From: Thuidium tamariscinum
Lineage: Eukaryota > Streptophyta > Bryopsida > Hypnales > Thuidiaceae
Length of the DNA stretch: 64,000 nucleotides
Assembly (NCBI GenBank): GCA_947034885.2
Contig: OX344756.2
Coordinates: forward strand, 13,512,098 to 13,576,097
Direction: 5' to 3'
Positions within the stretch are counted from its first letter, which is position 1; each line of letters starts with the position of its first letter. A model generated the notes under the pieces. It had not been told where the DNA came from. It ran no database searches and saw only the letters and a program-made list of their open reading frames with translations. A program made the translations under genes and the position numbers. This document shows, piece by piece, positions 28,943 to 64,000 of the stretch.

Positions 28943-29873
28943 TTAACCCCTAAAGAACTAAAGTCCCCTCAGGGGACACTTGGAATTTCGAGGAGGCTTG
29001 TGTGACTTGAATTTTTACTATGATTTTTTGAACTTTTTTTGAAAATAGGAAATCAGGTTAGCTTTCCAAAAATATAATTTTTATTTCAATTGGTGCTTGG
29101 AAGCAAAAGTTATGCCATTCTAAGTCCAAAAAACAGTTTGCCAGGTAGAAAAAAAAACACCAAAAAATTATTATTATTATTGTTATTATTATTTTTTCTC
29201 AAAGATTATGTTTTGTTCTACATCTGAAGCTTTGTTTCATTTTGTTTGGACAAATAATGAGAAAATTACGGACAAACTTGTATTTTGGGCAATCTAAGTA
29301 CCTTCTCTAAAATATAACTTATTGAATTCATTTTTGAATGCAATTTTTCAAAATTTTCAAATTTTCTTTTTTGATAGGGTTTAGGATGTTTGCAAGAACA
29401 AACTCACCTTTGGAATCATGGTTTTTCAATTACATCTTAAAGTTATTAATAACTTAGTGTTTTGTTCAATCTTGGACCTACTTCTACTTAACAATTTTTT
29501 AATGAATGAAAATCAAGTTGTTGTTTTTTAAAATTTTTTCCCCTAATTCTCAATTCAAATGTTCAACATAAAAAATTTGAACTTCATGGTCCATAGAGCA
29601 AAAAAATTCAACAAATGGTAGTCAAAGTCATCTGAAATTGCAAGTCAAAGTTCAAAAAAACTTTTTTTTGCAACTTTGAATGCTCATATCTTCCAATCCA
29701 TATGATCAAACTTCATGAAATTTTTACCACATGATTTCAAACAAGTAATTACAAGATCCTACGGTTATATTTTAATAAAATTGCTTTCTTTTGTTTTTTT
29801 GGGAAGAAGTAGCAAACATGGCAGCTTTGAGTGGTTTTCAAGCCAAAAAATGCCTTAGTCCTTTAGGGGTTAA
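28943..29873. mobile_element. TTAA-flanked non-autonomous piggyBac-like element, 923 bp
   Basis: The body (28947-29869) is flanked by TTAA at 28943-28946 and 29870-29873. Left terminus CCCCTAAAGAACTAA and the right, reverse-complemented, CCCCTAAAGGACTAA differ at one base. Just inside the left end lies a perfect palindrome, GTCCCC-TCA-GGGGAC (28963-28977). The interior is noncoding and is related in order to 46338-47245 and 42690-44019. TTAA duplication and CCC termini are hallmarks of the piggyBac superfamily. Confidence 0.7.
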
Positions 29874-30761: not shown

Positions 30762-30765
30762 TAAA

Positions 30766-33249: not shown

Positions 33250-34828
33250 GTGATGAACAATGAGGCTTGAAATCAGTGGTTATGGGTCCGTTCTTCAAGG
33301 GTTAAGGCTCACCGACCTTCCCACGGACTCAGACGCCCTTCTCCTCACCCCGATGTTAACCCTACACCGCGCCTCGTCCTCTTCCCCCCGCTGGCCTGCT
33401 CTGTCTTCCCTCCGTCAGAAGAATTATTCCCACTTGCCCTCAGTCTTCCCCTTCCGTTCCCCCTCGTCGTCGGTTTCTTCGTTTCTTCCGAGCACCAGCA
33501 AATCTCATCATTGACCGCATTGCAAGCTTCGTCTCAGTCGCTAGCTTCCCCTCTCCTCCCATTTTCAAGACGCCGGGCCAACACTTGTCTAGGAGATGTG
33601 ACTGGGATCAGGTGTTCGTGCGTTCACCCTTCAGGTGCGGATCTCACTGGGACTCTCCAAGTCTTGAATTTTCACGCAAGGTGGAGCCTCTCTTTCCCCA
33701 GATCTGTACATATATGGTCTTGGGGCGGAGAATTTTGGGCTCTATTTTAGGTCGGAGGGGGGTTGGGGCGATGGGGAAGCCGGATTTGGGGTTACACGGG
33801 AGGTCTATCTCGTTGATCTGCAATTAGAGGGGGGTTGCGGTCGGTGTGGCGTCGTTCGGCGGTAGATCTAAGCACTGGAATCTGAGGTAGTGAAGATTTG
33901 AGGAGCCTTCGGGAGAAGCTTTGCGGATTTGGTCCGTGGTTTCTTTCAGGTTTCGGGAAGTGGAGCAGTTGTGATTGAGAAATCACGTGGTAATGAAGAT
34001 TGAGAGTGTGTGTCATTGAGGATTTGGGGTGGGTGGGTGCATTGTGCTACATTTGTAGAACCGAAGTTTTTTCAGGGTTTGTACTTGAGAGGAAATAATA
34101 GGCTTGGGGAGAAAATGACGGAGATTTCTTACTTGGTTGTAGAGATTTGAATATATTGCAATTTGGATTCGTCAGTTTCGATCCTAGTTTATATGTGGGC
34201 ATCTTTTCTTTCCATTTTGGGATCCTGTTATTTTTACTCTCCAGTAATGGTGACATTTGGTGGGTGAAGTTGAGGATCCGAATGGCATATAGGTTCTGTA
34301 GTGTCCGGGATTCCAGATTTGGAAGTGAACGTTTTTCGTGCTATTTGCGCTTGGATGGTCTCTAGGATCGCTTGAATTTGAGACGGACAGATTTGGAATG
34401 ATGTGGAGATTTTGTGCATCGCACCCCTTATCTGAAGATTTTGTTCTGCATTGGATTCGGTGTTTTCTATGCGGGTCTCGACCCGGAAGAGTTGAAGCTA
34501 GAAATAGGAATTACACTGTATATGAAAATAGTCGATTACAGTAACTTTCAAACTATTTTTAATGCCAACCATGTTGGTTATGATTTCTTCTTCGTACTTT
34601 TTGTTGCCTTCCTTGAAACGTCATGAATGATCATTTTGATGTTTCCTCCTGTGGCTGTAAATCTATTTTGGAAGAGGTTATCTGTCAACTGAAACTATTG
34701 GAAATGCACTCACCTGAGTTGAGGGTTGATCTTGCTTGTGCGGTTTTGTAGTCAGTTTTGGTCATTGAAGGAATCGTTAGACTAATACTCTTCCATGTGA
34801 CTTGTGTAGTTCGCCTGAATAAGTAGCC
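33250..34828 (+). promoter_or_regulatory. Promoter and 5' leader (probably with a leader intron) of the PMT gene
   Basis: Composition changes sharply to GC-rich, CT-rich sequence at about 33260-33620, typical of a plant promoter and leader. A likely acceptor (CTTGTGTAG) ends at 34809, just before the coding start at 34829, so the leader is probably split by an intron. Frames in this region (such as 33260-33514) are Ser/Pro-rich chance frames. The donor could not be fixed. Confidence 0.45.
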
Positions 34829-37800
34829 ATGGCATTCCCCAAGCATGGCAGACAGGGGCAGCGAGGGATTTCGACTCCAGTCATCATTTTCGGCTCCATT
34901 TTTGCCGCTTTCTTAATGATCGGTGTCTGGGTGTACACCAGCCCTGTGACAATTGAACAAGCTATAGACAACACTACTGTTACCACGCAGTTTAGTGACA
35001 AGCCCAGAATCGAGGTCACTGAGGACACTCGTGCTCACGTCACCAGTGAACGTGAAAGTGAAGCAGAATCGAAAGAGTTCGAGGTTGAGAAACGGGAAGA
35101 TGACAATGACACCGACATCGAGGAGAAGTTGGAAGAGACTGAGGTGAGGGATGAACCTGAGAAACGAGACCTTGATGACGTAGCTGAAGTGGACGAGAGC
35201 ACAATTTTGGATAAGTCCATGGAAGAGACCAAAGCTGCGGAAGCCAAGACAGCAGCTGCAGAGGCGAAGGACGATGTTCAGCCTGATGACGAGCCTGGGG
35301 AGTCAAAGCTGGATGAGGTCATTGTAGAGAAAACCGACCCTGCGAACGCTGAAGACCTGCCCTCAGTCGACACCACCGATTCTGTGGACTCCGAGGAGTT
35401 GAGCACAAGCTCCTGGAAGTCTCAAGTCTCCAAGTCCACAGAAGAGAAGGAGGTGACCAAGTCTGAACCTGAGACTTCGCCAACCGAAGCTGTAGTCCCT
35501 GAGGAGACTGAATCTGCGGTTCAGACTGAGGAGGAGAAGAAGATTGAAGAAAGCCAGAGGGCGGCCACGACGGCGATTGTTATCCAGGAAGAAATAGCCA
35601 GGGCCAAATTGGAGAAGTATAAATGGAAGCTCTGTACCTGGACCGGTTCCCAAGACTATATTCCTTGCCTTGATAATAAGAAATGGCTTGCCACCCACAG
35701 ACAGCGTAAGCATTACGAGCACAGGGAGCGCCACTGTCCTATTCCCGCAGAGTTACCAAAGTGTTTGGTACCCCTGCCACCTGGTTACAAGCAACATATC
35801 AAGTGGCCTGAGAGTCGTAATGAAGTATGTCTCACATTTGAATCTATTTCCTTCTCTGATCCTTTCACCTACAGTATATTGGTGAATCTTTGTGAACTTT
35901 TAGGAGTGCAACATCTTCGATCAGTTTTTAACTGGTAATGTGGGAATTTCTGCAGGCGTGGTATGATAATGTGCCTCATGCTGGCCTTGCTCAGTATAAG
36001 AAAGATCAGAACTGGGTGAAGAAGCAAGGCGAGAAGCTCATTTTCCCTGGTGGTGGAACACAGTTTAAGCATGGTGCTGGACATTATATTGACTGGGTGC
36101 AGAAGGTAGGGTGTTTTTGACTCATTTATCTCGGGTTTTTCTTTTATGACTTATATGGCTGTAGTTTAATTCATATGAATATGTATGTAGCATATTCCTC
36201 ATTTTCTGCTTGTGGTTAGACCGAAATTGGTAAAGCTCGTTTGGAATTAATATTATATGGTGAACCTGTTGTGGGGTATGGTTTTCAGATATACCCATCT
36301 ATTGGGTGGGGAAAGCACACACGTGTCCTGTTGGATGTAGGCTGTGGTGTGGCCAGTTTTGGAGGTTACCTGTACGACAGGGATGTCCTTGCCATGTCCT
36401 TTGCCCCAAAGGATGAACACGAAGCTCAAGTTCAGCTGGCGTTGGAACGAGGAATTCCTGCTTTTTCATCCGTGATGGGCACAATGCGCCTTGTCTTCCC
36501 AAGCAACTCGTTTGATGTTGTCCACTGTGCCCGTTGTCGCGTCCCCTGGCACATTGATGGTACATAAGACCATTACATTCCTCAGCACTCTTTCAATAGG
36601 GGCAAGCATTTGTTATTGAATACGATCTCTGCATTCAAGTTTACTTGTGTTTGAATTTTGTCCTTGTTTGTGATGTCGAGACCCTTGGAATGGGTTGATC
36701 CCAACAAGTGTCTATTGTGCTTTATGCAGGTGGCATGCTGCTTCTGGAGTTAAATAGAGTGCTAAGACCTGGAGGACTTTTTCTGTGGTCTGCTACTCCT
36801 GTCTATCAAGACCTTGAAGAGGACGTCCAGATCTGGAAAGGTACTTCAATTTCATGGATATATGAGCACTATTGGGGGTTCTTATCCTATGGAATGATGG
36901 GCCGTGTTTTGTGATGGTGCAAATTTGTATTTGAAAGGCTGTTAACGTAATTTGTGTTGCAGACACAATTGCTGTGATTGAGGCGATGGGCTGGGAAATG
37001 AAAGTGAAGGAGACAGATGAGGAGACACAGATCGGTGTTGCAATTTTCCAGAAGCCTACTTCTAATGAGATCTACGAAAGCCGCACTGTTGACAAACCTG
37101 AGATGTGTGCTGCTGAAAACCACCCGGATGCTGCTTGGTGAGAAATCTTTGCACCCATACCTCTTTATTGTCACAACCTAGGTGCCCGAAGTGCACTTAA
37201 TTATCTAAGCAGTTCTGTGTCATCGTGACCATCCATTGTGTCGCATGTTAAGGTGACGCTAAAGAAGTCTCGGGGTCTCAGGAGTCGGGAAGGGCGGTCT
37301 AGAACCCTTTTCGCACTTGTTGAACTCCTTGGTTGAAATTTGAATGCAACTTCTTGTGACATAACAGTTTGACAGTGAGAGTACGGAGTGAGTTTAAATA
37401 GTATGTGATATTTGAGAAGATGGTGTTCAAGAGGTATGGGTATACTCAATACGGAGTTAAAATTTCATTATGGACTGCGAATGGTAATCTCCTGTCTGTG
37501 TTATTGCGCAATAAATATACAGTAGTCATGTGTTCTTCTAGGTGCTGATTTTTTAACTGAAAGTAGTTGGTGTGATTTATGAGGAACTAGTTTCTAATGG
37601 CGTAAGAACATATTTTCCCGCAGGTATGTAAGTATGACCGCATGCATCCATAAAATTCCAGACACCAAACGTACTCAGTGGCCAGAGGAGTGGCCACGTA
37701 GGGCTGTGGCAGTCCCCACTTGGTTGGACGAGAAGGACACAGGCCTGTATGGTAAGCCAGCTCCTGAGGACTTCGATACCGACACTGAGCACTGGAAGCG

Positions 37801-39744: not shown

Positions 39745-39867
39745 CACTTGCTGCAAATTCGTTTTGCTGATTGAATGCTTAACCCTTACATGCCGGACCC
39801 ATTACCACTGTTTTCAGCCCCTGTGCCAACACACATTTTGCTGCCATTTCGGGACTGAATATGTACG
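39745..39867 (+). repeat. Dispersed repeat, copy 1 (uninterrupted version of 41164-41568)
   Basis: Begins CACTTGCTGCAAATTCG and runs through TGAATGCTTAACCCTTAC and GCCGGACCC to GACTGAATATGTAC. The same order occurs at 41164-41208 plus 41484-41568, where it is split by a TTAA-flanked insertion. This copy is the empty-site paralogue. A T-rich run follows at 39868. Confidence 0.7.
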
Positions 39868-40485: not shown

Positions 40486-41140
40486 TTAACCCCTAACTGC
40501 CCAAGGTCTGTTTCTAGCTTCTTAGAATTTGCTCTAAGTTGAACAAAATGCCAACATATTGATAAGTTGTTTCAATCTTTTTTGAATTGGAACCGTACAA
40601 ATTCAAACTAGACATGTTAGAGATTACATAGGAAAAGAAAACACAACAATAGCACTTGTGGAGTGAAAGATTATAATGTTTGACCATGAGGGTGTTAAAA
40701 CTACAAAAGTGATGTAAAGTGTTTTTATCCTCTTTTTGCAAGTTAAATCTAAAAAGTTGGTGACCAAAAAACAATGAGGTGAAAGGGCCTAACATGCACA
40801 ACTCCAATCAATTTACGGCTCCTCAAAATCTATTCTACAATTTTTTTAAATGAATTTTGAATGTGATTTTTTCTTCAAGATCTAGTGTATTTGAGGCTCA
40901 TTTTCAAGAGCTCTCAAAACTACACAAAGTCAAGATTGCAAGGGGTACCCTTGTACAAAATCTTGTATAGACAAATCACTATCATTCATTTTCCAGATCG
41001 GATTTTTGACACTAAAACTAGACTTCTAGAAGAACTTTCCAAAAATACAAACTACTGAAAATAGAAAATTGGTTAGGTTTTATTTAACTTCAAAATTTTG
41101 CAAACACCAAATTCTGGTGCCTTGGGCAGTTAGGGGTTAA
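40486..41140. mobile_element. TTAA-flanked non-autonomous piggyBac-like element, 647 bp
   Basis: The body is 40490-41136 with TTAA at 40486-40489 and 41137-41140. Both ends are CCCCTAACTGCCCAAGG, a perfect 17-bp terminal inverted repeat. The interior has only short chance frames. TTAA duplication with CCC ends is the piggyBac signature. Confidence 0.8.
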
Positions 41141-42689: not shown

Positions 42690-44023
42690 AGACAAAATAG
42701 ATTTTAGGTAGGTTTCTATGGTTTCATTGTTCCCTTATGAGACAATGGATTTTAAATAGGTCCCTATGGTCCCAAATTTTCAGGGTTGATTTTTGTAACT
42801 TTTTTTGGAGATAAGGAAAATACATCAATTCTGTAGGAATATAATTTTTACTTCAATTGGTACTTGAAAGTAAAAGTTATGCCACCCTAAGCTGAATATG
42901 GGGTTTGTTAGGCAACACCAAAAAAAACACTAAAAGTCAATGAAATTTTCAGAATTTTGTTTCTCATAGAAAATATTCTTGTCTATGTGAAAAGACTTGA
43001 TTCATTCTAAGGTAAAGGCACCCATATCTGATCAAACAAGAAATTCAAGACATTATGTGGGGATTGTAAAGGAAAACAAATTTGTTTAGAGGTGCATTGA
43101 CATAAATGATGGGGATTACAAAATGTTTGGTAATTCTATTACTTGATTGAAATTACTATGAATTTTGGGAGGCAAAGTGTGTCTTGAATCCATAGCCAAT
43201 GTCTAGACCCTTCCAATTCCAATCATTTGAGAACTATTTTCCCATTCATTGCTTCCTAATTTTTTTCTCGCTTATGTGCCACTAACTTATTGGTCCAAAA
43301 CTTTAAAAAGTACAAAAACACACATTCCAAGGAAAAAATGAAAATCTATTCCAACCTTGGTTGGAGTTATAGCCCCTTCTAATTGTTGATGGGGGGTGGT
43401 TAGTATTGCATGCCTTTATCTTATTTGGACTATTATGAGAAAGTTATAGAAAATTGTGTTTTGGAGGCAATCTAAGCATCTTCTTGAAATAATAACCTAT
43501 ACAATTCACTTTCAAATGAATTTTTTTTATAATTAGAAAATATATACAATTATACATTTGACAAGGTCAAGTTCACTTATTAGAACAACCTCACCATTTT
43601 GGGATTATTGTGCTTGAAATTTCATCTTAAAGCTATTAACAATTTTGTTTTTTGTTCAATCTTAGACCCATTTCTACTTAATAATTTCTCAAAACATGAT
43701 AATTAAGCTTGTTTTTTGAAAAAAAATTCTTACACTTTCAATTCAATTCTTCATTGTAAATTTTTTGAATTTCAAAATATGTAGTGCCAAAAATTTAAGC
43801 TAAATAGATAAGTTCAAAGCCTTACACTTCAAATGCAAATATCTTGCAATCTATACAAACAAAGTTCTTGAAATGTCTTCTACAAATTCTTATACCAATC
43901 TAGTCCAAGATCCTTCAATTAGAAATGCACAAAAAAAATTCTAAATTTTTTTGCACTTTGCAATGGAAATGACAATTTTGAGTGGAATTTGGTGGAAAAA
44001 TGGTCTTTAGACATTAAAGTTAA
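42690..44023. mobile_element. Degenerate relative of the 28947-29869 element
   Basis: Internal order matches 28947-29869 and 46338-47245 (a TATAATTTTTACTTCAATTGG-like block, then AAAGTTATGCCA, later TTTTGAGTGG). It ends next to TTAA at 44020-44023. The left edge is unclear because ~50 bp near 42675-42772 is tandemly duplicated. The sequence immediately right of the TTAA (CCCCTCACCACCC) could be another element's left end, but no partner was found. Confidence 0.45.
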
Positions 44024-45203
44024 CCCCTCACCACCCATGGAGATGAAATCCTCCCTCTAAATTTTTTTTTTATCGTCCCAAATATATTCAAGTTGATTGA
44101 TTTAGAAGTGCAACTCTAGGCCAACAAGTCCTCAAACAAATGTTGGTAAACAAATGTTAGTAAACAAATGTTGGTAATGAATGATCATCACCCACATCAT
44201 GGAAGGGAGATTCAACTATACAATTCCGACACGAAGACACTAGTTACTTTTGTACTAAAGAATGTACCCTCTAAGATGCATTCTTCCTTTGCAATTAGAC
44301 TTATGACTCAATCTAAGAGAGTGAGCCCTAGCTTGCAAGTATGATACAATGCGCCATAAAGGGAGCATTTACTAGTATTAAAAACAATTCCCACATCATT
44401 CTCATGGTAGAATCAACTCCATTTTTCATCAACATCTTTCTTGTATATGCCTAAATCATCAAAGATTGCTTGTAATGTGCAATTCTTTATCATTCTTATG
44501 TGGCATGTCACCAAGAAGTTCCACTAAATAAGTGTTTGTTTACAATCTATTGTATCTGTAGCATTATGACATGTAAGAGGGCATTGTGTGGTGTCTTCTA
44601 AACAATCAAAATGGCTACAACTTTTTGTACATAATAATTGTAAGTCTTATGCTCGGAGCTTAAATTGGTAGCAACCAATTGAGGCCCATTGGACTCTACT
44701 AAAGAAGTTGCAATTCACCTTAGTCACTTGAATGTGCAAGCACACCTTTGGAATCGCAAAGTTGGTGCAATTTGTAGTTTCTCCCATAGTTTCAATATAA
44801 ATATCAAATGCAAGAATGTTGTAATGTTCTTAGTAACCTACAAAGTTTTTCCACAAAATACCTTTGAGAGATACAAAAATTAGGTAGTCTAGAGTACTAC
44901 ATTGAGGCATACAATATTCTACATATATTATATGGATTATATAGATACAATCCATATACTATCCAGATATGAATACAAATATAGGATCACTTGTCCTATA
45001 ATGTTTGTCAATCAGTTGGTTTCAAAAAATTACAAGAAGGGAGGGGGAGGGAAATGAAGATTCAAATGTTTAAAAGTTTAAAAGTTTAATGGGTGCACAA
45101 TGATTGTGCATCCAAAAATTTTTAAAATTTAAAATTTAAAATTCTTTGGCTTGTAAGAACATGCCAAGTGTACTAAATCCAAATTAAAATTTTAAATTTG
45201 TTA
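44024..45203. other. AT-rich intergenic DNA
   Basis: A short repeat (CAAATGTTRGTAAA) occurs three times near 44137-44175. No gene seen; the 64-codon frame at 44689-44883 has no motif. Confidence 0.35.
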
Positions 45204-45277
45204 GGATTGGTAGTTATTGCCACTTTTTGGTACATTGTTTACACAATATACCAAAAAGTGGCAATAACTACCAATCC
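45204..45277. repeat. Perfect 29-bp-stem hairpin
   Basis: 29 bp at 45204-45232 are exactly complementary to 45249-45277. The 16-nt loop can itself form ATTGT/ACAAT pairs. The stem begins GGATTGGTAGTTATTGCC. It could be a very short fold-back transposon or a small-RNA precursor. Transcription is unknown. Confidence 0.7.
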
Positions 45278-45743
45278 ACAACTTTGCACAATGTAGTGTA
45301 GGCAAGGGAGATGAATGTCTTTTGCTTGTGGGACAAAGATGTGGAGGTGGGAGGTAGTCACTAGGCCATTCATTTAACAATGACAACCAAGGTTTCCATT
45401 GCTATGAGTGTCCTACAAAAATTCTTGTACATCACTCCTCCAAGCACCTTCACTTGCTTAGAAAAAACATTTGTAGTACATGATCAAGTACTATAATCTA
45501 AAAATGTAATCTAAAAAAACTAAATCAATTAAGAGCATTAAAAGCAAATTTGATGCAACTATCGATTGAAATTGTGAATTGCATTCATTTTGCAAAAATT
45601 GGGGCTCTTAGAAACACAATCACTAAAGTGTTTGATAAGCTTTCTAAGTTGTTGGTTGAATCCAACGACACAAGAATGCGAGCATAGAAGTATGAGCCTA
45701 TGACCCTTGAACCTAAGTATAAGTAAGCATCCTACACTCATTG
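45278..45743. other. AT-rich intergenic DNA
   Basis: No feature seen apart from the palindrome cluster that follows. Confidence 0.35.
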
Positions 45744-45845
45744 AAGGTGTTTATAGCATAAACACCTATAATATAGGTGTTTAGAACATAGATATACTAT
45801 AACCATTGAGGTGTCTATAATATAGACACATATACTATAGGTATA
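45744..45845. repeat. Cluster of overlapping palindromes built on AGGTGTYTAT
   Basis: AGGTGTTTAT-AGC-ATAAACACCT is directly followed by an overlapping AAACACCTAT-AAT-ATAGGTGTTT, and ~30 bp later by GTGTCTAT-AAT-ATAGACAC. One ~10-bp word is laid down repeatedly in alternating orientation. Confidence 0.6.
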
Positions 45846-46337
45846 TAGAATTCTAGGCTTATAGGCTCACACTTTCTATGCTCACATATTAGCAACCGTG
45901 TAGTTGAATATAAGCAATGAGAGGTCAACAACTGAGTAATGTACTTGGAGTATTTGCATTACAAGTTTATGAGCTTAAGTAGTTGAGACATTCTCAATAG
46001 ATGCTTCATTCTCGTTGGTCTCTTAGACAAGAGTTATCCTTCCATTTCTACTTACTAAGTAATTTATTGGTATGTTTGGTGCCTATTGTGACAAAATAAT
46101 TCTTTTTTGAAAGAATTGAAGTTTGCCAATGAAAAAACAATTACTTGATATTATGTTTATTAATTTTGGAAGTATCCAAATAAAATGCCGTAATATAAGG
46201 AACTAATACTTGTTTCATTCTATATTACTACACCATTTTGATGTTTCCATTTGTCTTGCACTACTTGTCCCTTTTTGCAAATGTACTATGAGATTTGATT
46301 TTAGAGTTGAAGATTATTCTTTTGTTTTTGATGCTAA

Positions 46338-47245
46338 CCACTAAAGTCCAATTGTACCCTTGGGGGACAAAATGGATTTTGGGCAAGTTCCTATGAGCTC
46401 AATCTTAGATGAAACTTCTTAAAACTTTTTCATGAAATAGAAAAATTTATTATCTTTCTTGGAATGTAATTTTATTTCAATTGGTGCCCAAAAAATTATA
46501 CACAATAAGTCTAAAACTAAACTTGAAGGGTAAAGGAAAAAAACAAAAAGTATTGAAATTTTAAAAATAAATTATATTTTTGTTTAAATATATAGAAAAC
46601 TTTTATTCATTCCATTTGGATTTGTAATGTAAAAGTTATGGAGCATCTTGTTTTTTAAGCAATTAGAGTATCTTTTTGGAAAAAAAATTGTATAGGAATT
46701 AATTTTGAGTTCAATTTCTACATTTTTTGAAACCAAAATATTCTCACAAAGTAAATTTGGTTGTTTGAACAATCTCACTATGGATATTAGTGTATTTTAA
46801 TTCCATCTTAATGCTACTAATGATGTATTTTTTCCCTCTACCATATATCTTCTCCTATATAATAATTTATTAAAAAATGAATCAATTTATTTTTTAGATA
46901 TTATTTTTCTTACATTCTCAATTTGAGTCTTTATGATAAAAAAATTTGAATTCAGAATCTATAATGCAAAAGTTTGAAATTAAAAGGATTCAAAGTCTCA
47001 CAAATTAGGTTGCTCTAGTACCAAAAAACATTATTTCTTCACTTTGAAAGTTTGAATGCACTTATTTTGCAATCTATGTAGTCATAGTGTTTGAAAATTT
47101 TCCACACATTTTTATACTAGTCTATAGTAAAATCCTACATTTCCATATGCAAAAAATACCATTTTCTAAATATTTTTCTCTTTGTACTAGAAATAACACT
47201 TTTGAGTGTTTTTTGACAAAAGAAAAGGCCTTAAGACTTCAAGGC
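46338..47245. mobile_element. Degenerate relative of the 28947-29869 element, ~908 bp
   Basis: Begins CCACTAAAGTCC after a CTAA (a possible mutated TTAA) and ends GACTTCAAGGC. Internal phrases and their order match 28947-29869, and lengths are close (908 against 923 bp). It appears to be an older copy. Confidence 0.5.
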
Positions 47246-49745: not shown

Positions 49746-50352
49746 TTAACCCCAAAACGTCCCTGAGGACACAATCTGTCCTCGGGAAATCTTCTCAGCT
49801 ACTTAATGAGAAATCTAATTCGAATTCAAAAAAAGTGTGAACTATTGTTTTATGAGGCTTGAAATGTTGAAGAAAAATATAGTCATTAGGTGAACAACTG
49901 ACGTGTCCTGTAATTAATAAAGCTACATCATCGGGGCAAGGTTCACTGGCTAGGCCCAAAAGGACACTGCCAACTAGGATGGCATTCTCCGGGTCCTGCT
50001 CTCACAACCCAAAGAAAGGTCGTTGCAGTCCTCATGTCCGTCCTATGGGACATAGCCTTCCTGCCATTACAAAACCCTTATTCCTGTATACTTGTACCTT
50101 GCTCATAGACAGAGCCTACTTTAGAAACAATATAAGATTGCGTGTGGTGAGGACAAGGGTTTAGGGTTTGTAGGCAAATTGCGAGCAGTCACTATGAGCT
50201 TGCTTTGGATTCCTACAAGAACAAATCCTGTGAGAGAGTGGAATTTCGGAGGGAGCCATTTATGTGTCTTGGCGATGGTGACAATCAGGAGAATTTGGCG
50301 GCGATGACGGTGAGGTGTACATTTTCAACCGAATTGTGAGTGCTTTCCGATT

Positions 50353-51640
50353 ATGAAATCAAAGAGTGGGGTGAGTGACAGCTTAGTTTTCATTTTTTGC
50401 TGGAGTCCACTACTTATAATCCTCGCACTTGCACCTTCGTTTGTACATCTTGAAGGCAAAACAATTAGCGAAATGGCAAATTTAGGCAGCAACTCAATGC
50501 CCCAAGTCCCACAATCTCGACGAGAGTCAGCGCGTGTCATTGATAATTGGCTTGTAGAGATTGAGGCAAATGAGGCTCAAAGGAAACAAATCTTGAACTG
50601 CTTGGACAATCATCACTTGTTGTCCCTCCCTCGATGCTCTAAGATACTCCAATTGCCGAGTGAATTGAGTGGATGACATTGGCGAATTCTGTTCTACTCA
50701 AATGTCGCTTACATTTTAGGGTGGAAAAAAAAGCGTGACTTTTCTGATGAGCTCTTCCATGTAGCGAGAGAGATTTGGCTAGACAAGGAGGAACAAGATG
50801 TCTCAGTTGGTGAAAAAGGTTGCGCGACTTGCGGCAAAGGAGAGGCTGCTGGTGCGGAGCCTGGCATGCAAAAGGCGGGGGTCACGACGCCAACGCCAAC
50901 GCCGGCCCAAGCCATTACAGGTTCAAAACAAGGGCTTGCAAGGGGAGGGGCTGCAGTGTGCGCCCACACCTTCATTGGGGACCGATACTGCAAGTCCAGA
51001 GGAATGCCACTCATGAAGCCCGAAGAAATTGGAGTTGTTTCCAACTGGCATGCCGCATATACACGAGGACCAAGGCACTTGAATTCAACCGACACAGTAC
51101 AATCCACCAGACGTTCTGTTCAGTAGCATTGGAGGATCTGTAAACAAGAATTCTACCAAAAACTGGCTGAAGACTACTTCTTCATCAAGAAGGAGGAGCA
51201 AACACAAGGCAAAGGAGGGGGCAAGCAAGATCGACCCAGCAATGGTGGTTGTAGAGGGGAGGGACAGGGATCCACCTCCCTCTAAACATGCCATAGTTGA
51301 CAATGCCTTTGGGCGGCCAAGGCATGGGAGGGGAAGGGGCAGACCTGTGGCGATTGAAGGAGGTATGGTTGGAGATCAGGAAGAGGATGTATCCACTCGT
51401 GGGGGGGGGGAAACAACATAGTGCAAAGAGAGGAAAGAAAGGTAGAATGGCAAAATCACTAGTTGGAAAATTGCATGATGTTGGGACACCACTGGGTTGG
51501 TTGTGGCCGAAAATTGACATGGAGAGTCAACAGTCACCACGACGTTTGAGAGGAGGCATATCAATGAATCTCTTGGGGAGGACACTTCTTGTATATTTGG
51601 GGGACCCATGTGCGGCGGTGAGGTATTTATAGGGGGGCTA
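50353..51640 (+). pseudogene. Decayed coding region with an AT-hook-like motif inside the 9.1-kb element
   Basis: A frame at 50353-50676 includes SRRESARVIDNWLVEIEANE. A second stretch, in a different frame to about 51126, reads KKRDFSDELFHVAREIWLDK, a Cys-pair CATCGKG, and a Thr/Pro run. A third, from about 51090, reads LFSSIGGSVNKNSTKNW and then GRPRHGRGRGRP, an AT-hook-like basic motif, ending at a TAG after a run of ten G. The changes of frame suggest frameshifts or unrecognised introns. I do not recognise the family. It may be a second transposon gene or captured host sequence. GC content is higher than the flanks. Confidence 0.4.
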
Positions 51641-51869
51641 TAAATTACTTGTAATCATTACTTGGCAACATTAAAAGAGCCCCTATTTTACCATAAAGCG
51701 AAAAAATCAGCCATATTATCATCCCTATTTTATTTTTAAAACACTTTGCCTTTTTAATGTCCCCTATTTTATATGTAAATTTTTTATAAATTTTACCTAA
51801 TATTATTTAAATGTACCCTATATTCCGCCACACGTAGGTTATTAAAAAACGGGAAGTGTCCTCCCCTAG

Positions 51870-52142
51870 ATGAATCTTTTATTTCGAATGCAAGACAAAC
51901 AACAAGGCTTGGAGAGATTGGTAGATGGTGACACTCTTGGTGAACAATATGGAATGGTGGGAGATATAGAAGTGGAAGATGTGATGGAAACCGAGGTGGA
52001 TTGCAAGGAGACTCTAGGATCTGGATGTGAAAGTGCAGAACGTCTTCGACTTATTCATGAAGGCAAACAAATTTTAGTAGACGGTGGTGAATTGTCTATG
52101 AAGAGGCGTGGTCAGGACAGCCTCGACTGGTATGATTCTTGA
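51870..52142 (+). CDS. Unrecognised 90-residue frame inside the 9.1-kb element
   Basis: An ATG-initiated frame, acidic and rich in Glu, Asp and Gly (for example EVEDVMETEVDCKETL), with no recognisable domain. It could be a remnant exon of the preceding decayed gene. The start is simply the first ATG. Confidence 0.25.
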   Translation: MNLLFRMQDKQQGLERLVDGDTLGEQYGMVGDIEVEDVMETEVDCKETLGSGCESAERLRLIHEGKQILVDGGELSMKRRGQDSLDWYDS

Positions 52143-52439
52143 GGTGACGGGGGGAGGTGTTTGCATCTAGAAGGCACTAAGGATACCTTGTTAACTATCA
52201 CAATGGAGAATCAGCCTGCTGTCACGACTCATGTGTGGGTACCTCGTCCGCTTCTTGGATTGAGCCCTGTGATGTAGATTTTGCCTACTTGACAAAAATC
52301 CCAAGACAATTTACTAGGGGGTTATTTCCATGGAAAGGTCTATAAGTCTATCGTTTGTATGACTAAGGTCACTGTAATCGTATTTTGAATACTTATTTTA
52401 TGTCGTTTTTGGTTTTGTTTCAAATAATATAAACCCAAG

Positions 52440-54800
52440 GAAAATTCTCTAATGTCAATTGGTCACAGTCCACAAACCCAATGCTATAGTAGACCACATG
52501 TATGGTGTCATAGTCCTGTCTAGTAGGTGGCTCATGTCAAATATTCTTTGTCAATTGGTCTAGGGGATGTCAAATTGTCTTATGCATGCTCTAGCCACTT
52601 AATGCAATATATATTTTTATATTTTTATTTATATTATTTATTTTATTTATAATTTAATTCCTCTTTTCTTTCTCTCACATGGCAATTTTCACTCTTAATT
52701 TGCAATAATTTAATTTTAAATAAAAGAAATTTAAATTCTTTCCTTTTATTTCTTTCTTTATCTTTTAGCAAGTTGATCCTCTTTCGTAGGTCAATTAGTC
52801 TCAGCCATTCCACTTGAATTGAGTCATGTCAAATAGTCATCTATCTAACTACTTTATCTAATAGACCTAAATTCACTATTTAGACTTAATTGATTTATTT
52901 CCAACAACCACAAGCAATTCCTACCAACCAGATTTGTTGGTGGTTGGGGAACACTTACAATATGTGAATTTAATTCTAATCAACTTGACTCTATGAATTA
53001 GTCAATTTAATTTAATTTCTTATACCTATGACTTATAATATCAAAGGATCACAATCTACTAGACTTAAGGTAATTTAATCACACATTGTATTCAGTCTAT
53101 TAGGCTTAACAAATTTCAATAAAATTATCCCAACTTCATATCCAGTTGACCAAATAATTTTATTAATCTACAGTCAATTATCTCATTCCAATTTAATTAC
53201 ATGGTCGATTTGATCCTAAAGTAATCAAAGACATAGTAAATTATAATTGAAATTTGTGATTCAATTTATCAATTTAATATGTAGCAATTCAAGAATTAAT
53301 TTCATACTGTGTTGAATCAATTAGAATTTACAATAATTTTTAAAACTGGGATTCTTCACAGTCAATTCGACACACTTATCATTCAACATAATCTCATATG
53401 TTTAACTCTTCCTAAAACAATTCATAATTTCACATTTTTAATTACTTCCAAAGTACACATCTGATCTTATACACAAACCTTAGCATAAATAAATCAAATG
53501 GACTTGTACAAATCAATTAGACTTTAAACCAAGGTTGCTAATTCCAACTTTGGAAATACAAATTGCTCAGTCAACTAGACTACTACACCATACTGGTTGG
53601 CAATTTGACTTGGGTGCACATCCCCCGCATACATCATACCAATTTGGCAACTTGATGCATCATTTGTGCAGCATGTTTCTAGACCATTAGACTGACTAAC
53701 AATTGTTTTGCTTCATCCTAAATTACTATTCAGAGATCAATAAATTTCCAGATGATTTAAAAACAAAGCAAACTTGATTTATAGTTTGCAAGGCTCAGTC
53801 AATTGGATACAAAGTTACTCCTTCCATTCAGTGTCAAATGAATAATTCTAATTCTATCATTCAGTTTGCTACAGAAGTATCAATCAAATAGACCTTAATA
53901 TTGATACTGAACCTTTCCATCACAAGCACACAGCAGCCACAACAACCAATTGACTTTACAAATTAATATGTAAATTCGTCAACTAGCCAATGATTCTATC
54001 ACCACACACACAGATTCTCCCATCTCCACAATCTCACCAGCAACACACAATTGATCTAAAATTACTCAGGTAAATTGACTCAGGCTAACACATTACTTGC
54101 CTAATTGACTAAATGCATACTTAGACAATTAGACCACACTTACACCGATGGATGGTAATACTGGGAGCCATTTTGTAAATCAATTTGTCCTTCCTGTCGA
54201 GTCTCCTCCACCAACACAACCAGCTCCAAGACGATTTGACTGGATTTATGTTTTCACAATTTTATTCAATTAAACTAACTTCAGCTACCTGCTGCTCCAT
54301 CTAATTGACTTTCACACCACTATCACAGACTGAAGTCTCTAACTCCATTATACAAACTACTAGACACTGAGAATTAATTAAATGGCAATGTAAAACTGGA
54401 CGCTTGCGTTGACAATTAGACAAGGACTGCAAACACCAACAGGGCTCCAAAGATACACACACACAAGCAAATTGGCAAATGGACCAGAAAAATGAAAGAA
54501 CTCACAGCCACCTGTTGTCTGAGCTCAAGACAATTAGACAAAAGCAATTGCACAATAAAAGCTTGGAAATATATTGACAATTCGAAAACGAAGTACACGG
54601 TGAGTCATACCAACTATATGCACTGAATTCAAAAACAACTAGACCTTTGGACATATAGTCCCAAAACTGAAGACAACTCTTCACTACGAGGTGCGTTTGG
54701 CAATTTGACCTTCCAGTTCTTAATTAGTTCTTTCCAAATCTAGTTGACTTCCACCTTTTTGATTCTTGTTTAAAACCTGTGAGTCTATTAGACTTAGAAA
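52440..54800. repeat. Tract of dispersed GTCAATTAGAC-like words
   Basis: Variants of a near-palindromic word (GTCAATTAGAC, AGTCAATTGGA, CAATTTGACT, CTAATTGACT, CAACTAGAC) recur in both orientations, by eye more than thirty times, at irregular spacings of roughly 30-90 bp, across an otherwise AT-rich, noncoding stretch. It ends just before the transposase frame. It may be a strongly decayed satellite or a cluster of protein-binding sites. Confidence 0.5.
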
Positions 54801-54903
54801 TGGAAATGAAACCAATAGTAAACTCTATTCACACTTGGGAAGACAAATTGACATAAAAAATGAAAAAATGGTGTTCACAAGCCCTACCATTGGCTAGACC
54901 AAC

Positions 54904-56873
54904 ATGCTGTTTGGAGAAGTGGTACGAGAATTTGAGCACATCATTACTAGAGCAAGAATGTATAAAGTAGACTTTGGGGGAGTGCTGGGAATACAAGTAG
55001 TTGAGAAGGACAAGTGCCATACTATCGATGAAGGAGATATACCTGTTGCACATGCAAATGTGGAAGATGGTATCGCTAATGTTCCTATCCATAGTGACAT
55101 ACCAACATTTACACTGGAGTTGCCTTACTACCTCGAAGATGGAGTGGACGATAGTGACGAAGCATCAACTGATGTAGATTGGGAGGTCAATTTTTGTGAT
55201 TGGCAAGGGAACTCCGATTCTGGTAATTCTGATTGGATAGTCTCTGATTCAAGAAATGATCTCGAAGTCGTAGAAGATAGTAATCTTGATGTCCCCGATT
55301 TGGATTTCAATTTGCTTGAGTTCGAGCATCGTTATGCTCCACAACATTGGGAAGATTTAAATACAACTCTTCTTCCAAATCGCTTTGCCTTCACTAGTCC
55401 AACCCCCGGTCTTGTTCGACGTCAGAGTCGTTGTCTAGTAGTGGTACATGAGTTTTTTTCACCCTACTAGCCAATTGAAATGTTGAAGATGATTTGTATC
55501 TAGACGAATCGTTATGCTAGACAACCAAGGTACTCTAACCCACAGAAATGCAATGGTGGTGCGAATTGGGAGGATGTGTCAGTTGAAGAGATTCGGGATT
55601 GGTTAGGTATTTGTATTTATATGGGCTTGAAGAAGTTACCGAATATCTGTCTATATTGGAACAAAAAGTCATTTTATGGGTGCTTTCTAATAAAGGCAGT
55701 GATGCGTAGAAAGCAGTTTGAACAGATTTGTTGTAATATCCATTTGGTAGATAATTCTACATTAGTTGTAGACAAGGCGGATGCGAACTATGACAAAATA
55801 GCAAAAGTCCAATGGTTACTAGAATCCTTTGTGCAAACTTGTAAGGATTTGTATAACTGTGAACGTCACATTTGCGTTAACGAAATAATGATCCTCCATC
55901 GTGGTAGAAGGTGCAACATCAAACAATACATGCCGGCTAAGCCTATAAAGTATGGTATCAAAGTTTGGTATCTTGCGAATAGTAAATCCCGATACGTTTA
56001 TGATCTCGAAGTATATACTGGTTGAAAGGGAAAGAGTAGTGAGAAGGATTTGGGGTTCAAAGTCGTAAAGTCCTTAGTCTCTGATCTGGAAGGACTAGGT
56101 CACGTAGTAGTGACAGACCGTTTTTTTGACGTCTCCGAAACTATTCGATGAGTTTTTGCAGTGAGGTTTTTTAGCTACAAGTACTATCATGCCTAAGAGA
56201 ATTGGCATGCCTCCAAATTTGTCCCCATATTCACATGTGGCTGGTGAACGAGGTGGACTTATTGTTCAAATGCATCGATCTCGTTGCATGTCCGCTATCG
56301 TTTGGTTTGATTGGATTCCAGTCTTCTTTATCAGTACATTAGTAGACCCACTAGCAGAGGGAACACAATGCTTGAGGTGGACAAAGAAAGAAGGTAGAAA
56401 GGCATATCATACCTCTCTCATTGTGCTTGAGTACCAAGAAATGATGAAAGGGGTAGATTTAGTAGACCAACTGCGCATGGAATATATAGCCCAATTATGG
56501 TCGCACAAGTGGTGGCACCGCTTATTGCTGTTCATTTTAGATACTAGTTTAGGCAATACATATGTATTATACAAGAGCCATGTGTTGGGGATGGGGCAGA
56601 AGCGTGTTATGTCACGAATAGATTTCTACTATGCGCTTGCCAATTGGTTGTGTGATAGTGAAGTGCGCCCTGGACGCACTGCCGGTGGTTTCAACTGCAA
56701 TGATGGGCCTACATTACTCCGCAAGGCATGAGAAGCTTCATGCAAAGTGTGTCATCTACGGCCGAAAGCAGATACGGTACTGCCCGGGGTGTGGAGAGGC
56801 CTATATGTGTGAAGGCTTGTGCTACCTAAAAGTCCATACCATCCCCAAGTATACCACCAAAGTTCTGAAGTGA
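54904..56873 (+). pseudogene. piggyBac-type (PGBD, DDE_Tnp_1_7) transposase, disrupted
   Basis: In order: an acidic N-terminal region (DDSDEASTDVDWE), TNRYARQPRY, EEIRDWLGICIYMGLKKLP, ICVNEIMILHRGRR followed by MPAKPIKYGIKVW, HVVVTDRFF, MKGVDLVDQLRMEY, and a C-terminal Cys-rich KCVIYGRKQIRYCPGCGEAY. That is the piggyBac domain order. Of the catalytic Asp positions, the later three are present (VVTD, GVD, LVD), but the first, normally in a D-E context, is Asn. The frame is broken by TAG at 55468 and 55501, TGA at 56023, a frameshift near 56140, TGA at 56162, and another frameshift near 56720. One Cys of the usual C-terminal cluster appears to be Tyr. It cannot encode an active enzyme. Confidence 0.85.
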
Positions 56874-56929
56874 CGATTTATTTAAGTTTAGGTTCAAGAG
56901 CAATGACAATGCTCTACACTCGGACTATG

Positions 56930-57652
56930 GGGTGATTGCAAGAAACACCTGTCCTATTTGTTGCATTTGGCTGATTTTTTCGGGAGTACTTTAAAATTAG
57001 AAAATTAATTTTAAAAAAAATTTAAAAATATAAATAGTGTATATACCTCTAAGATGAAGATTTTGACCGAAGGAAATGGATAGAAAAATTCTCTAAGTAG
57101 GAGAACTTGAAAAGTGCCAAACCTCCAGAAAATACATACCTTCGTGTTTTAATTAGGGAAAAATAGTAAAAATAGATATTTTCAAAAAATAAAAAGTGTC
57201 CATTTGCGACAACTTTATAGAGATGGTCATTCACCAAAAAAACCACCAAAATAATATTTTATATGTTTCAAAATACAAGCATAAGGGAGCTCACTTTGTA
57301 GACCTCCACACCTCACAAAATTAACTTTTTTTTAAAATCCTTCTCTAGAAAGCTAGAAGTCTATTAGAAGACCATCTCATCCAAATTTCATGTCAAAATC
57401 ATTAAAAAAAGGTATAGCTCAGGTATAGAAAACCCCTAAACTACCAAGTGTGACATCCAATCGGGGGCTATTTATGGATAGTAAAATATTTTTGAAAATT
57501 ATGAAAAAATTATGGAAGGTTTATGATAGTTATGAGCACCTTCCATCCAAATCTTGAGTCAATCAGAGCTAAAACACAAAAGTTATGGCCAAAAAACAAA
57601 TCAGAATGCGACGTGTGACACAAAATAGGACAGGTGTTTCTTGCAATCACCC
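56930..57652. mobile_element. Non-autonomous DNA element, 723 bp, TATG target duplication
   Basis: Ends are GGGTGATTGCAAGAAACACC in both directions, and pairing continues inward through TGTCCTATTTG. TATG flanks both sides (56926-56929 and 57653-57656). It is the same family as 30038-30761 and nearly the same length. It sits 57 bp after the end of the transposase reading, inside the 9.1-kb element. Confidence 0.75.
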
Positions 57653-58863
57653 TATGCCGTTTTGCAAGAAGGATGTCAGAGGATGTTGTGCAATTATAGA
57701 TGGGTTGCTTTGAAGGGAGGTTGTGCCGGGAAGGTGTACAGTAGTAGCTGCACTATTTTGAAGGTAGGAGTACAAAGCGATCTACATCGATATTGATTTC
57801 AATGCTCGGGTTGTGTTTTATTAGGCTTGGCTTACATGTTTGTAGCGGAAGGGTTGGTTTGAAATCTTAGGGTTTTCCTTGGAGGATAGATTATGCATGC
57901 TCAGTTCAGTTAGCTTTGCCTTCGCAGAGGGTCTGTTTGAAGTCATGAAACTGGTGGCATTCCTGTTAATACGAAGCGAACTAAAATGTAGCCCAATCTT
58001 GTCTATGAAGACTATTTGGATAAATTTGTGTTGGGGTTGTTGAAATCGTGCATGCAAAATGAACTAGTGACCACGAAACATGGCAATGTGTGTGATTTCT
58101 TCTTATTTATCAGTAGCCTAAATCCACCTTCAAGGTCGCGCCTTCCGAGCGGACTGTGAACTTGTAGCACAAACCGTTGTTCACAAGGTTGACTTGCAAC
58201 CTCTTGGCGGGAATGATGCGACAAGTCATGCAACCCGCGCTAATTGACGATGCCACATTTGCTTCCCGCCTTGGCCACCCTTCCCTTCACCGGGTGGCCC
58301 TCAGTGTAACTTGCAGGTTGATGTAGCAAGCAAATGAACCATTTGATCTGGACCAAATTTTTTGCAGAAGTAAACCATTAGCTAGAATGTTGTAACATCC
58401 ATTTGGATCATCTTTTTATATTCCCCATTTAAAAAAAAAATTAAGTACATAGCTTGCCATGCATTGGCAAGTCGAGACACCCTCAAGTTCGGCATGGTGG
58501 TGATCAAATTGTGTTACTTGTATTCCAATTTTTTTTCCACAAATTACTTTACATATTGTCCTGTCCATAATGCAAAAATTCCCATGTCAATCCCTCAAGT
58601 TTTCATTGTGTAGTACCCAATGAAGTGTCCCAAGCATCTGCAAAAGTCATGCCTCGACAAGTGTGTACAGTGACATCTGTGCGAATCTTAGGCACTTTGC
58701 CAAATAATTTGGGGCGTCAAAAATTTCTACCGAATCCTCAAAAAGTTTGCAAACAATCCATACGATTGCATTATCACTCGCAGTTTCAGGGAAATTCTGG
58801 AATTTAGCTTTTGTTTGCCTCTCTGACGCGGGTCTAAATTTCGAGAAACTCTAGGGGCGTTTT
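57653..58863. other. Right part of the 9.1-kb element, no coding content
   Basis: Short frames on both strands (for example 57821-58233 minus) show no domain. A GC-richer patch with CCGCGC-type phrases lies near 58130-58310. No gene supported. Confidence 0.35.
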
Positions 58864-58867
58864 GGGG

Positions 58868-59695
58868 TTAAGGTAGACACACCCAAAAGTGCAGTTGACC
58901 TAAAAGCACCATCTACAACTTGTGTACATTTCAAAAATCAATTATGTATCTATTCGGATAGAGTGCTTTCAGAAACAAACTTTGACCTTTAATCCTTCAA
59001 GGATGGACCTATCATGATTGGTTTGAAGCCTCTTTGCCTGTCATTCAATTTGTTACCATTTTGGAAGCAAATATGTGTGAAATTTTATTTTTTATTTTTC
59101 AGAGATGAAAGTATATGTCTTCTATACTTCACAAAAAAATTAAGATTTTTTTGAGGAAAATTTATTTTTCTGAATTTTTTTGAAGAGAAAGTGAAGAAAA
59201 AATTATATCAAATAGAAAGTTGTCTCAAAAAATCTGAAAATTTCACCATGTGTGTACATTATAGTGACAAACATCATGGTGGAAACATCATGGTGGAAAC
59301 ATCATGGTGGAAACATCATTTCCGCATACTTCTATAGGTAGGATGCAATGGACATTGAAAATGTAGCCAAAGTTCAAAATGCAATAAAATATATATTCAA
59401 TTTTACAAATTTTTCCAAAATATCAATTGGAGTAGAAACTAGAGTAGAGGACCTTCATTTCATTAGTTGGGCTCAAACTCAAAAAATGTCATTTTCAAGG
59501 AGAAATTTCAGATTTAGTAAATTGACTTTAGAAGGGGTTAATAACTTTTGCATATTGTATCCAAAATGGTGCATTTTTTGGTGCATTGGATTGTGCTTTC
59601 ACTTGCCAATAAGATTATGTGAGAATTTGAACAACTTAATAATAGTAATTAGGCATGGTACCAATTTGTGGTGCTTTTGGATGTACCTACTTTAA
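58868..59695. mobile_element. TTAA-flanked element, 820 bp, abutting the 9.1-kb element
   Basis: The body is 58872-59691 with TTAA at 58868-58871 and 59692-59695. Ends GGTAGACACACCCAAAAG and, reverse-complemented, AGTAGGTACATCCAAAAG resemble those of 41209-41479. Its left TTAA is also the right TTAA of the 9.1-kb element. The interior (59090-59545) is the dispersed repeat also found at 41580-41960. Confidence 0.65.
59270..59319. repeat. 14-bp tandem repeat, 3.6 copies
   Basis: Perfect repeats of AACATCATGGTGGA. The relatives at 41580 and 32830 have only one copy of the CATCAT phrase here, so this is a local, recent expansion. Confidence 0.85.
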
Positions 59696-62424: not shown

Positions 62425-64000
62425 CTAACTCACATGAAGGGAATTCAAATGGTTCGATGTCGTATTGCTTTCAGGACCGCATGCTGGCATGGACGATGAC
62501 GGACCACAGTCCAGTGTCCCGGTCTCCATTCTAGGCTTCCGGGCAGCGTTCAATTCCGCACGCAATGACTGCAGCTCTTTCTGCATTTCCAACATCAAAA
62601 TTTGATCTGGATTAGCCGTCTCCTCTCCTGCATCTACCCTTACTTCCATCACAGCCATGGAATTGTCGGCATCAGTTCTATCTAGACTTCTATCATCATC
62701 CTCCTCGTCCACTGAAGGGCTGCTTTGCTTCCGCATCCTCTCCCTCCTCTTCTTAGAAACACCTGCATAACCCTTCTTCCTCCGCATTTTGAATTCCACT
62801 TCCTCTGGATCAGGCTCCCTCCCCAACGCCTTCTCCAAATCCTCTCGAATGCCATCTTCTCCTTTAGGACCTGTTCTGCCCGGATTCACCCTTGAAGCAT
62901 TTGCGTACTTCATTCTTTGAGATAGTTCTTCTCGATGCGGGTCTTGACGAATGCGGTCTAGGCGTTTCCAAAGTTTGTCATTCATTCCGCTCGGGCAGTC
63001 ATCGCCTTCCTTCATTGATGAAAGAATGCGGGAACGACGTTGGGTGACATATTTACCTGCCAGCTTCCGTATATGACCACGATCCACTGGTGCACTATAC
63101 TCAAATGTATCTTTCAGAAATCGCCGTAGAAGTGACATATCTTCTTCGCGTTGATACCAAATATTTGTGACTGATGGATCCAACGCCGAAGTGAGTCTAT
63201 TCAGCTCTTGCTTCCACGCTCCAACTCCGAATCCATATGGCACCCCAACATGGTTTACCGTTATGTAGTGCCCCTTCAGTCCTTGCCTCTCCCGAATTCG
63301 CCTTTCGCCTTCTCTCTCCCCTTGTCTACTACACCATTCTTGACGCTTCTGTGACTCTGTCTTCACTTCTACCATGGCTTCGTAACTTTCGGGTTCCGCG
63401 CTGCTCCTTCCTGACAAAATGTCCTCACTATATTGGCGCTTCTTGCGCCCTTCCCGTCGGATGTCACGAAGCCCATCACGATGTCCTCGTACACGCCGTT
63501 GATGTCGGTCCAGAGAGCTGATTGGGGAGTCCTCTTCCATTGAATCGCCCTCGTGACATCCAGTATACCGTCTACTCCCATGACGGTGACTTTCCTTTGA
63601 TCTTCCCCTACGTTGCCGTTGAACTCGGAATCCCATGCCCCGTTCTTGTCTGCCCGCCATCTACACACATTCATGAGAATAGATTGGGCGGTTTAGGTTT
63701 GGATTAAGTACACTTAGCGTGCAGAGATTTGGTGAATCTCATGAGCTCAGCCACGTTTCAAAAAACATGTACCACGTACATGTAGACACGGATACAACAA
63801 ACCAGATAAAAAAAAATGGGTTTGGGTCACACTCACTTCCGAATAGTACTCGGATTCCTCATTGCTGTAGCGCTCCGCACCGCGTCCTCGCTTGCGTTGT
63901 CGCGAACTCTCTCCAAACCTCCGTTGGCGATCACCACCATTCTCCTCGAATTCTCGAACAAAGGAATCTGACGTTCTATTCCGCGCTGCACCATATGAAT
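62425..64000 (-). CDS. Ptta/En/Spm-type plant transposon protein, partial at right edge
   Basis: A 1236-bp minus-strand exon (62425-63660) joins an upstream exon (63837 to the window edge) across a GTGAGT donor and TGTGTAG acceptor in matching phase, so the ATG at 63658-63660 is probably internal. The product is very basic at the N-terminus (RQRRGRSKESHRHGSRR), then has VTNIWYQREEDMSLLRRFLK, and a block with SQRMKYANASRVNPGRTGPK and GREPDPEEVEF that resembles the conserved region of plant Ptta/En/Spm proteins. It ends in a coiled coil (EMQKELQSLRAELNAARK). A GTGAGT just before the stop leaves room for a further 3' exon. It is open for 411 codons with no breaks, unlike the other transposon genes here. 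The family assignment is from memory. Confidence 0.5.

Follow-up and report, generated by a model that had tools for sequence, protein, structure and literature searches.

A decayed piggyBac-superfamily transposon with three nested insertions in the genome of Thuidium tamariscinum

Features of the locus

The window, that is, the whole stretch of DNA that was analysed, comprises 64,000 nucleotides of Thuidium tamariscinum (C8:13512098-13576097, contig OX344756.2) from an assembly of 363.2 Mb in 19 contigs. Its positions 49746-58871 contain a TTAA-bounded element of 9.1 kb, in which we found a transposase gene of the piggyBac superfamily in three parts, two nested elements, and a solo long terminal repeat (LTR) carrying an array of 11-bp palindromic sites (Table 1). 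We are very confident that this is a piggyBac-superfamily DNA transposon, about 5.5 kb long, that inserted at TTAA, was hit by three mobile elements and decayed.

Table 1. Features of the 9.1-kb element and of two gene-less elements in the window (TIR, terminal inverted repeat; DDE, transposase domain)
Feature	Position	Strand	Remarks
TTAA and left 15-bp TIR CCCCAAAACGTCCCT	49746..49764	+	sole other 0-mismatch genome match is the right end
Subterminal palindrome GAGGACA-N5-TGTCCTC	49765..49783	.	adjoins left TIR on inner side
Transposase gene, 5' part (in the "second gene" of the sequence-only reading)	50473..51563	+	DNA match to L009/L010/L011 at 50473-50792; tblastn
Nested element A, 298 bp, 51572-51869; 8-bp target duplication ATGAATCT at 51564-51571 and 51870-51877	51564..51877	.	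inverted repeats
Transposase gene, middle part	51878..52262	+	tblastn with L009 transposase
Solo LTR, 2,612 bp, 52268-54879, TG...CA, 5-bp duplication AGCCC	52263..54884	-	strand is the pol strand of the full-length copy
32 palindromic 11-bp sites GTCNANTNGAC, at most 1 mismatch, inside LTR	52283..54852	.	conserved across copies
Transposase gene, 3' part, with DDE domain and Cys/His C-terminal domain	54885..56873	+	stops, two frameshifts, Asp to Asn
Nested element B, about 56930-57652, ~0.7 kb, 30-bp inverted repeats, duplication TATG (or TA)	56926..57656	.	3' of gene
Right 15-bp TIR and TTAA	58853..58871	-	inverted-repeat pair with left end
Gene-less TTAA element, 931 bp	28943..29873	.	same kind of TTAA-bounded pair
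Gene-less TTAA element, 655 bp	40486..41140	.	17-bp perfect TIRs after TTAA

Element boundaries

A sequence-only reading of the window had described TTAA at both ends, 15-bp TIRs with one mismatch and a subterminal palindrome, and all of these were confirmed at the same positions. The TIRs agree at 14 of 15 bases; they begin with CCC and are accompanied by a TTAA target duplication, both of which are characters of piggyBac. Three TTAA-bounded pairs (15-bp repeats, at most one mismatch) were detected in the window, compared with none in 60 simulated windows of 64 kb each generated with a second-order Markov model. With up to three mismatches allowed, the end pattern was matched twice in the window against 0.05 expected. 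Through the search of the whole assembly, the only 0-mismatch matches were these two ends; eight further sites had one mismatch, and the reversed-pattern control gave none. Two of these eight sites form a TTAA-bounded relative of 5,539 bp (L027), the gene-5' end of which matched the left 38 bp of the window's element, palindrome included, at 92%.

The palindrome, GAGGACA-CAATC-TGTCCTC, follows the left TIR immediately on its inner side. Similar left-end palindromes were found in the related loci L012, L013 and L014 and in the 931-bp element of the window, and L027 has one at its gene-5' end. The piggyBac element of T. ni has an internal repeat, and by likeness to it the left palindrome may be a binding site of the transposase C-terminal domain.

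Two shorter elements joined by chimera or misassembly could also leave a left and a right end of this kind, and the one TIR mismatch and the many nested repeats of the region would suit such an origin. We consider it extremely unlikely, since the exact end sequence was detected at these two ends and nowhere else in the assembly, and the gene content and spacing agree with complete relatives. Because the exact TIR occurs at its two ends only and its relatives share the layout, the element is a single one and not two half-elements.

The decayed transposase gene

The piggyBac transposase recognised inside the element was borne out by PF13843 matches on two frames (E 9.3e-37 and 6.1e-10), and the PDB matches within the E-value limit were piggyBat and T. 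ni piggyBac only. What was taken for a second decayed gene is in fact this transposase gene's 5' half, and it matched the N-terminal half of the transposase of a related locus, L009. Through tblastn of this protein (1,087 amino acids, aa) against the window, we found in-order matches at 50813-51304 (weak, E 0.002), 51429-51581 (E 7e-6), 51873-52319 (E 5e-29, covering the middle part 51878-52262), 54880-56127, 56123-56809 and 56706-56870. Since the L009 protein matches both regions collinearly, the "second gene" belongs to the transposase gene. The alignment is interrupted where nested element A and the LTR are inserted, and the match 51873-52319 extends about 50 bases into the LTR.

In the frames aligned with L009 we counted six stops from 51873 on, excluding the LTR, and two more in the weak N-terminal match; two frame changes follow the LTR. 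An Asn replaces the first catalytic Asp in this copy (ICVNEIM, against VDE, CDE or ADE in the relatives), which leaves it without the catalytic triad of three Asp (DDD). We read this loss as decay and not as grounds for exclusion from the piggyBac superfamily. The Cys/His C-terminal domain was found at 56706-56870, with 75% identity to the tail of L009. Because of the stops, the frameshifts and the replaced Asp, the window copy is by its sequence a dead pseudogene.

Nested insertions and original size

The element had been taken for one large transposon with extra sequence. That it is a single element of the piggyBac superfamily held; the native large size and the cargo did not, because the 9.1 kb result from three later insertions, namely the 298-bp element A, the 2.6-kb solo LTR and the ~0.7-kb element B. 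Part of element A has a 97% copy within L019, and relatives of element B were detected at window 30536-30763 and in L009, L011 and L012. Without the three inserts and one duplication each, the length is about 5.5 kb (5,473 bp, by arithmetic only and with the end of element B taken three bases generously), which lies within the 5.1-5.75 kb of eight relatives.

The continuous TTAA and TIR bounds would also be expected of a native 9.1-kb element carrying a functional motif tract besides a second gene. This possibility is very remote, considering that the supposed second gene encodes the N-terminal half of the transposase, that copies of the tract, an LTR flanked here by a target duplication of its own, are dispersed in the genome, that the eight relatives measure only 5.1-5.75 kb, and that 12 piggyBac loci contained 30 sites of the tract's motif in 104,382 bp (0.29/kb). 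The locus thus corrects a tempting misreading: the "large cargo-bearing element" is one of ordinary size with nested insertions.

The long motif-rich tract described in the sequence-only reading is indeed motif-rich, with its 32 sites, but it is a solo LTR and not piggyBac cargo. The genome search with the tract gave 81 matches (40 scored of 260 candidates), and those reaching the right side end mostly at query base 2604-2606, corresponding to window 54879-54881. The left LTR end rests on fetched copies because the query began 8 bases inside: the LTR start TGTRATGTAGATTTTGCC is present in 16 of 19 fetched copies, six of these 16 being solo LTRs with exact 5-bp duplications. In three of the others the start is preceded by the same GCCAAAA, which would be expected if it were an internal junction. 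The tract has the TG...CA ends and short target duplication (AGCCC) of an LTR retrotransposon.

A full-length copy was found on C3 (L048 with L045/L046, about 3354157-3373771), with LTRs identical at 2,400 of 2,400 positions and flanked by CCTTC. The piece L048, which covers 8.0 kb of a roughly 15-kb internal part, encodes reverse transcriptase, RNase H and integrase in Ty3/Gypsy order. Towards the 3' LTR it also contains two extra open reading frames (ORFs) of 258 and 271 aa, the former with a sub-threshold PF20167 match (E 0.019). These comparisons establish the tract as an LTR of a Ty3/Gypsy family, irrelevant to piggyBac transposition; the solo LTR presumably remained after the two LTRs of such an element had recombined. 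The idea that its palindromes are recognised by the piggyBac transposase, or belong to a piggyBac system with two genes, was rejected, as relatives are without the tract and the tract is an LTR.

The tract can also be read as an in-phase GT...AG intron of the transposase gene, in which GT at 52269 and AG at 54896-54897 join GLSP to TNMLFGEV in frame. We give this reading hardly any credence: the common right end of the genome-wide copies and the 5-bp duplications of six of 16 copies at other targets speak against it, and in L009, L013 and L016 a single open frame runs through this place.

The piggyBac population of the genome

The piggyBac superfamily had been called sparse in plants, which is not true of this genome. 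A family search for the piggyBac domain gave 659 candidates, of which 116 were scored and all 116 were over the cut-off; 74 of them had no stop inside the match (counted from the table). The decayed copy of the window is not among the 116. All eight transposase loci that were fetched contain a TTAA-bounded repeat pair around the gene (at most 1 mismatch in 12 bp), and these elements measure 5,094-5,751 bp.

Near-identical and seemingly intact relatives exist elsewhere in the same genome. L009 is 99.93% identical to L010 and 99.61% to L011. Three of ten equal-score copies (L049-L051) have a length of 5,096 bp, TTAA ends and a stop-to-stop frame of 1,023 aa, and are 99.98-100% identical. As these near-identical copies lie on three chromosomes, their sequences provide strong evidence of recent piggyBac movement in the genome. 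L009 and L010 were found in opposite orientation on C8, about 0.3 kb apart.

PF13843 is present in two relatives. Among eight representatives, the first and second catalytic Asp were found in all eight, and the third in all seven that reach it. L009, L016 and L013 form one group (39-59% identity) and L002, L003, L005 and L049 another (43-66%), with L015 apart; identity between them is 24-33%. L027, like the window copy, is broken by stops. ATG-started frames in 16 loci included four of 1,067-1,180 aa (L009, L011, L015 and L016) and eleven of 492-945 aa, some of these shorter ones truncated where the locus ends or interrupted by stops, and possibly including introns, and L014 had none of 450 aa. 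In the longest relatives, a part of about 600 aa that includes RG-rich stretches precedes the DDE domain, and a Cys/His tail follows it; this first part gave no Pfam match in L009 and L016.

Proposed history of the element and points against it

In animal piggyBac, the C-terminal domain binds the element, hairpins form at TTAA and excision is scarless. The element here had one long transposase gene and a left-end palindrome, and was inserted at a chromosomal TTAA. While alive, it would have moved by the usual piggyBac cut-and-paste: the transposase would bind the TIRs, and perhaps the left subterminal palindrome too, via its C-terminal Cys/His domain, the hairpins would be opened at TTAA, and excision would occur without a scar. 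Three other mobile elements later inserted into it, and the element decayed.

Several points weigh against this account. The C-terminal-domain binding and the scarless excision by the piggyBac route were inferred by analogy with animal piggyBac. The assembly yielded no further element with these ends, which is why the family's empty site and uninterrupted form are unseen; the coding DNA that aligns with that of the relatives shows only 66-67% identity. The duplication of nested element B is ambiguous. The TIRs of L049-L051 are imperfect and fail the 12-bp, one-mismatch rule, these elements having been recognised by eye and by their identity limits. The very long frames exist in only four of the 16 loci, and the structure prediction of L009 is poor (mean predicted local distance difference test score, pLDDT, 36.8). 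Finally, of nine elements five had an exact palindrome (arms of at least 5 bp) at positions 20-22 of the left end, but one of the nine, the 655-bp element, whose orientation is arbitrary, had such a palindrome at the right end; up to four palindromes were considered for each end.

The palindromic site array of the LTR

The window's LTR contains 32 GTCNANTNGAC sites at no more than one mismatch, three of them perfect, whereas 200 simulations gave a mean of 0.65 and a maximum of 3. The other 61 kb of the window contain 14. In each of eight full LTR copies, counting that of the window, there are 29-37 sites. The flanks of different sites showed no similarity, and the array is therefore not a young tandem repeat.

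Column identity among the LTR copies was 0.943 in informative motif columns, 0.836 in in-motif spacers, 0.841 in flanks and 0.867 in the rest; the best of 1,076 shifted motif placements reached 0.922. This comparison used the first 1.1 kb of 19 of the 20 copies (L029 was left out, its match being too short), with sites defined without the compared pair. The conservation excess was 0.085 over 15 sites, against a mean of 0.004 and a maximum of 0.057 in 100 neutral simulations on the copies' tree. A first test (0.919 against 0.749 in flanks) was biased, as the sites had been picked in one of the two compared copies, and it was replaced. The LTR palindromes are thus probably kept by selection as putative protein-binding sites of the retrotransposon.

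Two other explanations of the array were weighed. The palindromes might be passive, derived from an old tandem repeat or from composition bias and without binding function; the sequence is AT-rich, the motif is short and degenerate with three of 32 sites perfect, and binding is only predicted. We regard this as unlikely, since the flanks are dissimilar, the simulations never gave more than three sites, and the motif columns are conserved while the in-motif spacer columns are not. The palindromes might instead be W-box-like sites through which host WRKY factors induce the retrotransposon under stress. TTGAC[CT], counted on the basis of the W-box consensus, reached 6.13/kb in the LTR against 1.63/kb in the rest of the window, but TAGAC, which is not a W-box, is as strongly enriched (8.42 against 1.72 per kb), and about 30 sites per LTR together with an array in the internal spacer are far above stress-box arrays. 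A role of WRKY factors is accordingly doubtful, though conceivable.

The array continues into the internal part of the full-length copy. L048 contains 59 sites, 45 in the 4,137 bp outside four listed ORFs and 14 in the 3,864 bp inside them; nine of these 14 are in the two extra ORFs (1,593 bp) and five in pol ORFs. Because of these 14 sites the array is not strictly non-coding. The parts of the full copy that were read contain 129 sites, 35 per LTR and 59 in the 8-kb internal piece. We might speculate, as a tentative and rather improbable model, that this Ty3/Gypsy family, a young one, controls itself, the protein of an extra 3' ORF binding more than 100 GTCNANTNGAC sites per copy, for example against its own silencing. 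VANDALs, which have such a system with the VANC protein, are DNA transposons; if the model is true, an independent VANDAL/VANC analogue has arisen in retrotransposons. A VANC homologue was sought by Pfam only, in which one extra ORF gave the weak PF20167 match.

Neighbouring features

The two gene-less TTAA elements of the window are both repeated in the genome. For the 931-bp element there were 5,303 first-look candidates; 38 of 40 scored copies matched positions 1-931, the other two started at 3 and 5, and identity was 91-92% apart from the element itself. For the 655-bp element there were 4,813 candidates; 38 of 40 scored copies matched 1-655, the others were short by at most 10 bases, and identity was 96-97% apart from the element itself. 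Several degenerate stretches at window 42787-47106 resemble the 931-bp element, the three longest being 65-73% identical, which suggests from their sequence further old copies of it.

An ORF at 27124-27828 contains a Snf7 domain and is presumably CHMP1-like, and an ORF at 34823-35938 contains the start of a Methyltransf_29 domain. The latter is flanked by TTAACCCT ends in opposite orientation, with a common ACCCATNACCACTG, at 33270-33305 and 39779-39811. A perfect 14-bp tandem repeat of 3.6 copies (59269-59319) lies a short way beyond the right end of the piggyBac element. Near the dead element, an open frame of 411 aa on the minus strand (62425-63660) showed a weak match, below the cut-off, to the plant domain Transposase_24 (E 7.3e-5). 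This match and the Snf7 and Methyltransf_29 ORFs are in keeping with a land-plant genome. Viral-contig scans gave no match.

Comparison with known systems

The window element itself is a pseudogene, and the interest of the locus lies in the palindrome arrays and in the recently mobile plant piggyBac lineage. T. tamariscinum has a plant genome with a large, recently mobile piggyBac population, in which some transposases are about twice the usual length; because the population is large and recently mobile, plant-native piggyBac is directly testable. The relatives found here share with piggyBat of Myotis lucifugus and with T. ni piggyBac the TTAA target, TIRs beginning CCC, the PF13843 DDE domain, the Cys/His tail and DDD. 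In contrast to the chains of those two transposases (578-594 aa), the longest open transposases here have 1,067-1,180 aa, of which about 600 precede the DDE domain, the elements are about 5.1-5.75 kb, several families have a palindrome inside the left TIR, and the window copy is dead.

PMC8086355 and PMC3902484 state that piggyBac-like elements exist in plants, PMC10004981 reports PiggyBac-type miniature inverted-repeat transposable elements in angiosperms, and a fern repeat table in PMC6890710 lists 1,230 PiggyBac entries. PMC10619864 was discarded as a source on plant piggyBac, its two "piggybac" text matches being the word "piggybacking". Among open-licence papers, we found none devoted to piggyBac in bryophytes or other plants and no description of a large, recently mobile plant piggyBac population.

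The conserved LTR palindrome array is a case in which self-regulation by a mobile element can be tested outside Sireviruses and VANDALs. In PMC2829016, the Sirevirus LTRs are described with many copies of a short palindrome, as in the plant LTRs studied here. Sireviruses belong to Ty1/copia, whereas the order of reverse transcriptase, RNase H and integrase here is that of Ty3/Gypsy and not of Ty1/copia; with the exception of Tnd-1 they share a CGG-CCG core in their motif, compared with GTCNANTNGAC here, and the source calls the motif Sirevirus specific among the elements compared there. VANDAL/VANC, according to PMC5735166, has in common with the present family dense arrays of short motifs, mainly non-coding, in a plant mobile element with extra genes, and the VANDAL arrays are bound by an element-encoded anti-silencing protein. 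The same paper describes VANC21 motifs as having one orientation and often lying in tandem repeats, whereas the sites here are palindromic, have unrelated flanks and are also contained in the extra ORFs.

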